DNA of 64,000 nt. Source: Candidatus Rokuibacteriota bacterium. GTDB lineage: Bacteria; Methylomirabilota; Methylomirabilia; Rokubacteriales; CSP1-6. The stretch spans positions 1 to 64,000 of the forward strand of contig QHTB01000132.1 in NCBI GenBank assembly GCA_003220615.1, given 5' to 3'. Below, piece by piece: positions 47,506-50,138 of the stretch. The position numbers and the translations under genes are program-made. The notes under the pieces were generated by a model. It had not been told where the DNA came from and searched no databases. It saw nothing but the letters and a program-made list of their open reading frames with translations. Each line of letters starts with the position of its first letter. The stretch's first letter is position 1.

Positions 47506-47853
47506 ATGACGACGGCCGGCGCCGACTGCCTCTTCTGCCGCATCGTCGCCCGCCGGAGTGACGCCGAGATCGAGTACGAGGACGATCACGTGCTCGCCTT
47601 CAAGGACATCTATCCGAAGGCGGCGATCCATCTGCTCATCGTTCCCAAGCGCCACATCGCGTCCATCCTGACGATGGAGACGGGCGACGCCGAGGTCATC
47701 GGCCGTTGCCTGCTCGCCGCGCGCACGATCGGCGCGGCCAAGGGCTTCGGCGAGCGAGGATATCGGGTCAGCGTCAACTGCGGGCCGGAGGGCGGCCAGC
47801 ACGTGTATCACGTTCATTTCCACTTCATGGCCGGAGGACGACGGGGCGCCTAG
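47506..47853 (+). CDS. HIT-family nucleotide hydrolase
   Basis: A 115-residue HINT-type protein. DCLFCRIVARR and the histidine triad HVYHVHFHFMAG are diagnostic. Family members hydrolyse AMP-lysine or nucleotide phosphoramidates. The ATG at 47506 gives the standard length; upstream codons are not coding. It converges on the protease-rhodanese gene, whose read-through end lies 2 bases away. Confidence 0.93.
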   Translation: MTTAGADCLFCRIVARRSDAEIEYEDDHVLAFKDIYPKAAIHLLIVPKRHIASILTMETGDAEVIGRCLLAARTIGAAKGFGERGYRVSVNCGPEGGQHVYHVHFHFMAGGRRGA

Positions 47854-47855
47854 CG

Positions 47856-49316
47856 TTAAGCTTTCGACTCCAGCGGCAAGCCGGCGTTCGCCCAGCTTCC
47901 CAGGCCGCCCTTGAGAATGCGCACGTCGCGGTATCCCTGCTTCCTCAGCAGCAGCGCCACCCGGGCGCTGGTCGCCTCGTCCGGTCAGGTGCAGTAGGCG
48001 ACGAGCGTCCGGTCAGGCGCGATGTCGAGATCCGGGCGGGTGGCCTCGAGCGATTGCGGCGTGACGTGGTGCGAATTCGGGATCCGCACCGGGCTGCGCT
48101 CGTAGGTCTTGGCGTCCCGCACGTCGAGGATCACCGGCGGCTCCGCGCTGTCGATCATGCGCACGAGCTCGCTCGGCTTGATCCGGAAGCGGTTGCGCCG
48201 CCAGCGCAGCACGAACATCGCCGCGTAGGCGCCGAGACCGACCAGGGTCACACTGGCGGCGACGAGGGTCCACGGGAAGGGTCGGGGTGGTGGATGGTTG
48301 ACCTTCTCGTCGTTCTCGCGAGTGACGCGCATGACGTCCGGCAGCTCCGGCATCAGGCGGTTGGCTTCGGCGAGGGCGCTGGCGGCGCGGGAGTGGTTGC
48401 CGGCGAAAAAGTCGCTGAGGCCGGCCTGCCACGCATGATTGAAGCGACTGGGCTCGCCGAGCTTCACCTCCGTGCCCGCGAGAAAGTCCTTCACCGCCTG
48501 CGCCGGAATGACGAAGTTGAAGCCCTGCACGATCGAGCCCTGATCGGTACCACTCTGCGTGATGAACGTGAGCACGCCGACCACGCGGCCACGATCGTCG
48601 ATCGTCGGGCCACCGCTATCGCCGCCGGCGGCCGACGCGTCGGTCTGGATCACGGGCTGGCCGGATTTGTCCTGCTTGAAGCCCGAGACGGCACCGTTGG
48701 TGACCGAGGCCTCCACTTTGGCCGACGCATTCAGGAGCTCGTGGGTGAGGACCACGCCCGGAAAGCCGATGATGTGCACGGGGTCACCGATCTGGAGCGC
48801 GCCGGAGTCGCCGAGCGTCAGCGCCGGCAGATCGGCGGCCTCGAGGCGCAGCAGCGCGAGGTCGCGCCCCGACATGCCCTCACCGGCGATGGGCGGGCTG
48901 TACTTCGCGATCGTCGCCGGCATGCGGATGCCGTTCGAGAGCACGACGGAGATCGACGGCTCCAGCTTGACGTCGGTCGCCCGACAGCCGGGGCGCGTCG
49001 CGCTCTTCGCCATCTCGGCGTTGAGCCAGTCCGGGGGGCGCTGAGCAGGGGAGACGACGTGGGCGTTCGTCACGAGCCAGCCGATCGGGCTGACGAACCA
49101 TCCGGTCCCGGTCTCCCGGAGCGGAGCGGGCTCGACGGTCGTGACCACGCCGCCGCAATTCACCGTGACGCGGGCAGCAACTTCCGAGACGACGAGCGCG
49201 ACGGCCGGCTTGGCGCGCAACAGGACTTCCTGAAGGCTCTGCGCTCGTGCGGTTCTCGGGGACGCGGCGAGGACAACGAGAACGACGAGCCCGAGCACGA
49301 CCATCGAGCGTTTCAT
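47856..49316 (-). CDS. Membrane trypsin-like protease fused to a rhodanese domain, probable selenoprotein (in-frame TGA at 47985-47987)
   Basis: Reading through a TGA gives one 486-residue protein. Residues 1-25 are a signal peptide. The periplasmic HtrA/trypsin domain shows His (WLVTNAHVV), Asp (GRDLALLRLE) and Ser (AAGGDSGGPTID). A TM helix lies near 349-371, and a rhodanese domain follows (VILDVRDAKTYE). The first frame ends ...LVAYCT-TGA. The next codons continue PDEATSARVALLLRKQGYRD and GGLGSWANAGLPLES, completing the rhodanese fold to a TAA at 47856. The TGA is codon 444, giving Cys442-Thr-TGA where relatives have CTC. A hairpin 14 nt past the TGA fits a bacterial SECIS. I infer selenocysteine; a nonsense mutation is the alternative. 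TAGAAT lies 6 bases before the ATG. Confidence 0.8.
47952..47970 (-). promoter_or_regulatory. Bacterial SECIS-like hairpin after the rhodanese TGA
   Basis: On the minus strand CAGCGCC pairs with GGCGCTG (7 bp, perfect) around the loop CGGGT. The stem starts 15 nt and the loop 22 nt after the TGA, and the second loop base is G, meeting the usual bacterial SECIS rule. Confidence 0.65.
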
Positions 49317-49350: not shown

Positions 49351-49389
49351 GAAAAGCGAAAGGCTCCGGGGAACACCCCGGAGCCTTTC
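49351..49389 (-). terminator. Rho-independent terminator of the repeat-protein gene
   Basis: A perfect 14-bp stem (49358-49371 with 49376-49389, loop AACA on the plus strand) is followed on the minus strand by GCTTTTC. It lies 33 bases after the repeat-protein stop. A second 7-bp hairpin (CGGAGCG/CGCTCCG) is at 49402-49418. Confidence 0.85.
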
Positions 49390-49421: not shown

Positions 49422-50138
49422 TTACTTCATCGCGGAGATCGCGGCCTCCGCCTTCGCCTTGGCCGTCTTCATATCACCCGCCTTGCACGCGGCCTCGGCC
49501 TCGCTCACCAACGAAGAGGCCTTGCTCATGCCAGCAGGCTGCTTCGCACCGGCCATCGTCCGCGGAGCCTGGACTTCCTGACCGCGCGGAGCCTGGACTT
49601 CCTGACCACGCGGAGCCTGGACTTCTTGACCGCGCGGAGCCTGCTGCGTCGTGGTCCGCGGAGCCTGGACCTCTTGACCACGCGGAGCCTGAACTTCCTG
49701 ACCGCGCGGAGCCTGGACTTCCTGACCGCGCGGAGCCTGAACTTCCTGACCGCGCGGAGCCTGGACTTCCTGACCACGCGGAGCCTGGACTTCCTGGCGA
49801 GCACCCGCGAGCGACCGCGGAGCCTGGACTTCTTGACCGCGCGGAGCCTGCTGCGTCGTGGTCCGCGGAGCCTGGACCTCTTGACCACGCGGAGCCTGAA
49901 CTTCCTGGCCACGCGGAGCTTGCACTTCCTGACCACGCGGCGCCTGGACCTCCTGACGCGCGCCAGCCAGCGTGCGCGGCGCCTGGATGTCCTGCCCCTT
50001 CGCCACGCTCTTCTGGGCCAGCATCTCCTTCGCCTTCGTCACCTCGGGCGGGCACGCAGACTGCGCGTCGGCCATGGGCACGAAGGCGGAGAAGAACGCT
50101 ACGCTCACGACCGTTGCCGCCGCCATCAGCTTCTTCAT
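49422..50138 (-). CDS. Secreted octapeptide-repeat protein
   Basis: A 238-residue exported protein. Signal peptide MKKLMAAATVVSVAFFSAFV...ADA is followed by a short helical head (CPPEVTKAKEMLAQK). About fourteen copies of G/R-QEVQAPR follow, spanning residues 48-193 with TLAGA/TTTQQ interruptions, then a helical tail with one Cys (EAEAACKAGDMKTAKAKAEA). The repeats are encoded by near-identical 24-bp units, so all frames look open; only this frame has a signal peptide. Head and tail each carry one Cys, which could pair. The function is unknown. The start is the ATG before the signal peptide; a sigma-54-type promoter lies upstream. Confidence 0.8.
   Translation of the reverse strand: MKKLMAAATVVSVAFFSAFVPMADAQSACPPEVTKAKEMLAQKSVAKGQDIQAPRTLAGARQEVQAPRGQEVQAPRGQEVQAPRGQEVQAPRTTTQQAPRGQEVQAPRSLAGARQEVQAPRGQEVQAPRGQEVQAPRGQEVQAPRGQEVQAPRGQEVQAPRTTTQQAPRGQEVQAPRGQEVQAPRGQEVQAPRTMAGAKQPAGMSKASSLVSEAEAACKAGDMKTAKAKAEAAISAMK
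49560..49997 (-). repeat. 24-bp tandem repeat array encoding GQEVQAPR
   Basis: About fourteen near-perfect 24-base units, arranged in blocks of 4, 1, 6 and 3 copies separated by TTTQQAPR and xLAGA spacers. The spacers repeat too, suggesting a larger duplication of a block. Confidence 0.9.

Follow-up and report, generated by a model that had tools for sequence, protein, structure and literature searches.

A predicted selenoprotein that joins an HtrA-like protease to a Cys-Thr-Sec rhodanese in Candidatus Rokuibacteriota

Results

The locus and its reading frame

We analyzed a 64,000-nucleotide stretch of DNA from Candidatus Rokuibacteriota (contig QHTB01000132.1, positions 1 to 64,000; hereafter the window), in which a minus-strand gene between a HIT-family gene and a gene for a secreted repeat protein carries an in-frame TGA. 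The features of the locus are as follows, with Sec (U) standing for selenocysteine.

47506..47853, plus: convergent HIT-family gene (PF01230, 72.6 bits)
47856..49316, minus: predicted selenoprotein coding sequence, 486 residues with TGA read as Sec; ATG at 49316, TAA stop at 47856-47858
49242..49316, minus: probable signal peptide, residues 1-25, with A-R-A at its end (sequence and model helix 2-17; cleavage site inferred)
48573..49109, minus: trypsin-like (HtrA-like) protease domain, residues 70-248 (PF13365, 102 bits)
48297..48446, minus: three-helix linker, residues 291-340 (AlphaFold2 model)
48192..48272, minus: predicted transmembrane (TM) helix, residues 349-375 (model helix and sequence), with RWRRNR at the helix end
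47886..48176, minus: rhodanese domain, residues 381-477 (PF00581)
47991..47993, minus: Cys442, the expected rhodanese catalytic Cys (C-T-U), kept in 49/49 near-full-length Sec members of the family
47985..47987, minus: predicted Sec codon TGA, residue 444, after LVAYCT
47954..47968, minus: putative bacterial SECIS core, stem GCGCC/GGCGC, loop CGGGT, 16 nt downstream of the TGA
49358..49389, minus: intrinsic-terminator-like hairpin upstream of the gene; the surrounding 60-nt stretch folds at -32.9 kcal/mol
49422..50138, minus: upstream secreted repeat protein (QEVQAPRG repeats), on the same strand as the Sec gene

A preliminary description of the window had reported that the frame stops at ...AYCT-TGA and that a further 42 codons run to a TAA 2 bases from the HIT gene. 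This held: the frame is interrupted once, by the TGA at 47985-47987, and the 42 codons that follow, ending ...GLPLESKA, lead to a TAA that lies 2 bases from the end of the HIT gene. Because the HIT gene is on the opposite strand, the two genes converge and form no operon; a HIT gene adjoins 27 family loci, 26 of them Sec loci. The QEVQAPRG repeat protein is also conserved beside the Sec gene, its N-terminal part in 25 loci (24 Sec) and its C-terminal part in 21 (19 Sec). Its function is unknown, and it is possible that it is a partner or a substrate of the Sec protein. An operon with this same-strand gene was considered but is not claimed, since the terminator-like hairpin stands between the two, and the selenoprotein gene is therefore likely to be its own transcription unit.

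Domain anatomy of the read-through protein

An AlphaFold2 model computed from 28 aligned Sec members (mean pLDDT 87.7, pTM 0.68) laid out the read-through protein as a signal helix, a protease body, the linker at residues 291-340, a long helix at 349-375 and the rhodanese at 381-486. Foldseek and sequence searches grouped the protease with DegQ, DegS and HtrA1 (Foldseek E ~1e-17 for DegQ and DegS), and the rhodanese matched 6mxv in the sequence search. Residue columns, including those of the protease triad, could be read in 85 of the 90 family members described below. His86, Asp152 and Ser234, which we take by motif to be the triad, were invariant in 85/85, as were Asp398, Arg400 and Glu447; Cys442 we take, from rhodanese enzymology, to be the catalytic Cys. 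Neither the window protein nor any of the 28 Sec members scanned matched a PDZ domain at E 0.001, and where such a domain is expected, C-terminal to an HtrA-type protease, the model places helices and the TM segment instead.

The long helix at 349-375 is predicted, by the model and the sequence together, to span the membrane. According to the positive-inside rule, the positively charged side of a TM helix is the cytosolic one. Because the RWRRNR stretch marks the positive side of this helix, we placed the rhodanese in the cytosol, an inference made from sequence alone. The architecture first proposed for the protein, namely an export signal, an HtrA-like protease, a TM helix and a cytosolic rhodanese, thus held, with no PDZ domain found.

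The TGA is shared by 51 family members

We searched the read-through protein in 195 genomes and took the family set from part of the matches. After removal of 19 doubly extracted loci, it comprised 90 distinct members whose sequence covers the Sec column. TGA stood at this column in 51 of the 90, down to 31% identity, and because the same TGA recurs in 51 genes from 46 genomes, a base-calling error at this codon is untenable. The 39 other members carry Ser or Thr (35), Cys (2; L058 and L105), Glu (1) or Ile (1), showing that Sec is replaceable in the family. The preliminary description had stated that related rhodaneses read CTC at this loop, which is true of few, Cys being found in only 2/39 non-TGA members and Ser or Thr in most.

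Of the 57 genomes in family-level group f1, 43 yielded a Sec form, as did 3 more genomes from elsewhere in the class. Sec and non-Sec forms occurred together in 23 genomes, only non-Sec members were found in 12, and 3 f1 genomes had no copy covering the Sec column. On a family tree of 84 of the 90 members (6 truncated ones were dropped), built by a quick method and with support below 80 on 21 of its 81 inner branches, the Sec column required at least 6 residue changes, and Sec was absent in several lineages. A scan of a named collection confirmed 97 stretches and listed 79 distinct loci, Sec and non-Sec together, all named Candidatus Rokubacteria/Rokuibacteriota or NC10/Methylomirabilota; the scan used two peptide patterns from this family and says little about other phyla. 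One hundred genomes sharing only the domain Bacteria gave weaker matches, of which the best, at 32% identity over residues 135-372, had E 7e-31.

The frame beyond the TGA is under purifying selection

Reading through the TGA gave the rhodanese domain 50 bits for PF00581, against 23.1 bits without the tail and a gathering cut-off of 22.2. Over the 40 codons after the TGA, pN/pS was 0.31, and pN was the lower of the two in 1034 of 1035 pairs. This set comprised 47 of the 51 Sec members, 4 copies from group f9 being excluded, and 1035 of the 1081 pairs could be used after the TGA, one copy ending at a contig edge. For the 40 codons preceding the TGA, pN/pS (0.907) was computed with indels unaligned and was not used as evidence. 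Given the rise in the rhodanese score and the pN/pS after the TGA, the frame past the TGA is real coding sequence under purifying selection. A loss of similarity past the TGA, which would have refuted the Sec reading, was not seen, the tails being conserved in the 51 TGA copies.

A hairpin downstream of the TGA is conserved beyond chance

The 7-bp hairpin with loop CGGGT that had been noted 15 nt after the TGA was confirmed (nucleotides 15-21 pair with 27-33, the base after the TGA being 1), and its conservation exceeds chance. The pattern GCGCC-NG[GT]NN-GGCGC, 16 nt past the TGA, was present in 51/51 Sec genes versus 2/39 genes without the TGA, and none of the 51 TGA-bearing relatives departed from the inner 5 bp or from the loop G. 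The same counts hold for GCGCC-N-G-N-N-T-GGCGC with its first base 17 nt past the TGA. The loops of the Sec genes are CGGGT (26), CGTGT (14), AGTGT (5), AGGAT (3) and AGTAT (3), all of the form NG[GU]NN. The core folded as 5 bp with a 5-nt loop in 40 genes and as 6 bp with a 3-nt loop in 11, with a minimum free energy (MFE) of -7.6 to -8.7 kcal/mol and a spacing of 21 nt to the 5-nt loop. The published bSECIS model prescribes a stem of 4-16 bp, a loop of 3-9 nt with G in the first two positions, a spacing of 16-37 nt and an MFE <= -7.5 (PMC13188914); the hairpin satisfies all four constraints. MFE folding of a fixed 42-nt stretch often picked pairings other than the SECIS hairpin in many members.

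Since the stem never varies, no compensatory covariation could be counted, and the case for the hairpin rests on synonymous constraint. The four third codon positions in the stem underwent 0, 0, 0 and 0 changes on the tree (48 Sec rows), compared with a mean of 9.3 and a minimum of 2 changes at 26 other third positions in the Sec rows, and with 2, 11, 12 and 11 changes at the same four positions in 36 non-Sec rows. The SECIS stem is therefore under synonymous constraint in Sec genes. A Fisher test of hairpin against TGA (8e-20) ignores relatedness, and the change count on the tree is the better control. Two non-Sec genes retain an intact hairpin, L105 (genome G085; Cys, TGT) and L047 (genome G027; Glu, GAA). 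Both are likely to be very recent losses of Sec, a sequence error being also possible for L047.

Sec machinery and other TGA-bearing genes in the source genome

A search for sel genes in the source genome found a tRNA-Sec (69.7 bits, UCA anticodon) near selA and selB, SelA (594 bits), SelB (366 bits) and SelD (345 bits). SelD has its own in-frame TGA near the start, at what we take to be the site where the Sec or Cys of SelD is expected. Co-occurrence of the family with Sec machinery was tried as a test and set aside as non-discriminating, selB being over the cut-off in 85/99 relatives and tRNA-Sec in 81/99. Most relatives are thus likely to be able to make Sec, and some with selB and tRNA-Sec have no Sec copy among the matches examined (e.g., G003, G007 and G011). 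In 19 of the 51 Sec genes TGA serves as the closing stop as well, counting the first stop at least 38 codons on, which shows that the codon has not simply been reassigned.

The TGA-N16-hairpin pattern occurs four times in the source genome: in the present gene, in two DedA/VTT-rhodanese fusions and in C96. The C96 match was rejected as a Sec rhodanese, because it reads as no rhodanese, and was taken as chance. The two fusions, on C144 (L153:122-1096) and C221 (L156:2638-3612, minus strand), have FCSU and LYCTU loops and the same hairpin. Over 94 genomes the pattern occurred 96 times, 89 times with a CxU-type rhodanese loop and 7 times without, and a backward control gave 5. The second residue after Sec in those 89 is Asp or Glu in 52 and Asn, Ser, Lys or Gly in 37. 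When 29 TGA-hairpin loci were typed by N-terminal motifs, 12 were protease, 8 VTT and 9 undecided, so that the 52/37 split is only a rough guide to fusion type.

Besides the present gene, four rhodanese genes in the genome have an in-frame TGA at plausible sites. The short rhodaneses on C39 (L155:2516-3049) and C59 (L152:1421-1972) have theirs at YCGGPNU and FYUTCPHA, respectively, Sec positions that differ from the CxU type. An in-frame TGA was also seen at RVUHSA in a formate dehydrogenase-like alpha subunit, L158 (C52:29164-29922), and another fragment with a TGA lies at C5:50200-50640.

Paralogues with a cyclic-nucleotide-binding domain

In 34 of the 39 non-Sec members the rhodanese is followed by a cyclic-nucleotide-binding (cNMP-binding) domain, scoring 80.7 bits in the copy from the source genome (L090:3663-5621, minus strand, C195). 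We identified the 34 by length and sequence; 32 are near-full-length long copies and 2 are truncated. All 34 have Ser or Thr at the Sec column, and among the 32 long copies Ser occurs in 27 and Thr in 5, Cys442 is missing in 3 and the triad is kept in all. The domain was found in none of the 28 Sec members scanned, and no extracted Sec protein (n = 51) exceeds 576 residues. A loose motif for the cNMP phosphate-binding loop was met by 26/32 and a second pattern by 0; neither was used as evidence. A single origin of the cNMP form was rejected on a quick tree (p 1.8e-5), a result that recombination of the 3′ part could equally produce.

Discussion

Proposed mechanism

We consider it very likely that the window gene encodes a selenoprotein in which TGA is read as Sec. 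The evidence is computational only, and neither chemical nor proteomic data show Sec in the protein. This Cys-Thr-Sec reading, already proposed in the preliminary description, is supported by coding past the TGA, by the hairpin and its absence from 37/39 relatives without the TGA, by the Sec machinery and by Cys homologues, of which there are only two. In the proposed mechanism, SelB and tRNA-Sec would decode the internal UGA as Sec, directed by the hairpin 16 nt downstream, and the product would combine a cytosolic Cys-Thr-Sec rhodanese with a serine protease of HtrA-like type in the periplasm, the TM helix and the helical linker joining the two. The Cys442/Sec444 pair may then alternate between a reduced state and a selenenylsulfide (or persulfide-loaded) one, and the state of the rhodanese, relayed through the TM helix and the linker, may set the activity of the periplasmic protease from the inside out.

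We inferred such control because the triad is invariant and a ligand-binding domain has been added in paralogues without Sec. No data tie the state of the rhodanese to the protease, and that the Cys442/Sec444 state sets protease activity is a proposal about which our doubts outweigh our confidence. Signalling across the membrane, as first suggested for this protein, thus remains an inference with indirect support from the cNMP paralogues, which suggest that cytosolic control of the periplasmic protease may be exchangeable.

Alternative explanations

The main rival accepts the selenoprotein but holds that the rhodanese is a membrane-tethered sulfur/selenium transferase or reductase and that the protease is not controlled, and we find the reasons for and against it nearly balanced. 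In its favor, the same Sec-rhodanese module and hairpin are also fused to DedA/VTT membrane proteins, so that membrane attachment may be the point of the fusion. Against it stand the invariance of the triad in 85/85 members, the retention of the fusion in both f1 and f9, which have only the class in common, down to 31% identity, and the addition of a ligand-binding domain in paralogues that lack Sec, a change easier to reconcile with control than with catalysis.

A second rival, in which a near-cognate tRNA or a code with TGA reassigned to Trp or Cys reads the codon in place of Sec, is all but excluded. A TGA followed by C is a leaky context, and C follows the TGA in 44 of the 51 Sec genes. 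However, TGA closes the frame in 19/51 of the same genes, the hairpin fits the bSECIS model, the Sec machinery is present, and the hairpin is missing in 37/39 non-TGA relatives. A true stop, giving a product of 443 residues with half a rhodanese and a decaying tail, would agree with the mechanical ORF listing, which ends at the TGA, and with the absence of Sec in several lineages, but is practically ruled out by purifying selection after the TGA, the invariant hairpin and the 51 TGA copies with conserved tails.

Significance of the protease-rhodanese fusion

Returning to inside-out control of the protease, a bolder version remains possible, in which the Cys-Sec rhodanese would sense reactive sulfur, selenium or redox state and gate the protease, the Sec input having been swapped at least twice for a cNMP-binding input. 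If true, control would run from the cytosol to the periplasm, an unusual direction. To our knowledge, no earlier Sec residue has been shown to control proteolysis across a membrane, and the switch, if true, would be the first. Rhodanese CxU selenoproteins are not known to have an established function. Here the CxU domain is fused to a protease, whose proteolytic activity is easy to measure, and the same protein exists naturally in Sec, Cys, Ser and cNMP-binding forms; the role of the CxU rhodanese is therefore directly testable. The architecture was not found in the selenoprotein catalogues that we could search and belongs to an uncultivated soil/groundwater group, and a plain ORF ends at residue 443.

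A protease-rhodanese selenoprotein fusion was not found in the literature searched, a partial search with relevant selenoprotein-catalogue and groundwater-genome papers outside our reach. In term searches, protease, peptidase, trypsin and HtrA were absent from PMC13188914, rhodanese and protease were both absent from PMC12013277, and protease was absent from PMC5029168, PMC1088965 and PMC5322559. A 2026 groundwater paper reportedly describes a Methylomirabilota genome with 63 selenoprotein genes.

Comparison with known systems

The protease resembles HtrA, DegS and DegP in its trypsin-like fold and H-D-S triad. Unlike in them, no PDZ domain was found in the window protein, and its anchor is C-terminal to the protease and bears the rhodanese; it also misses the NCBIfam HtrA cut-offs (for TIGR02037, 75 bits versus 416). 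DegS is itself membrane-anchored, and the direction of its control is opposite to cytosol-to-periplasm. Among selenoproteins named as proteases, a 'trypsin-like serine protease' and a 'secreted serine protease MucD' were predicted in the GOS data (PMC2398784). In these proteins Sec takes the place of a conserved Cys within the trypsin domain or forms part of a CxxU motif, unlike in the window protein. A PDZ/thioredoxin-7 CxxU protein catalogued from PMC2398784 is likely to be the MucD-named one.

Two further systems join a rhodanese to a membrane protein or a similar part. TsoB (rhodanese/DsbD fusion-like, NF045694; PMC13188914) likewise has a Sec rhodanese joined to a membrane-protein-like part, but its motif is UxxxxU and its partner DsbD-like, and NF045694 gave no match to the window protein at E 0.001. 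DedA-rhodanese fusions are known (PMC10127716, PMC12893004) and are likewise membrane proteins with a C-terminal rhodanese, the copies in the source genome having CxU and the same SECIS. By contrast, their membrane part is VTT, of flippase type, and not a protease, and Sec is not mentioned in the parts of PMC10127716 and PMC12893004 that bear on the fusions.

A further relation is to the CxU rhodanese selenoproteins already catalogued (PMC9312934, PMC13188914). The model NF041203 (rhodanese_LYCAU) likewise describes a rhodanese with a predicted Cys-x-Sec, which is C442-T-U444 in the window protein; from the motif in the model name and the catalogued CxU, we infer that the Sec columns of the two are the same. 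The window protein scores 80.1 bits against NF041203, under the curated cut-off of 115, and differs in that a membrane protease carries the rhodanese at its C-terminal end. As far as the literature searched allows us to say, what is new here is a protease fusion of a known CxU rhodanese selenoprotein type.
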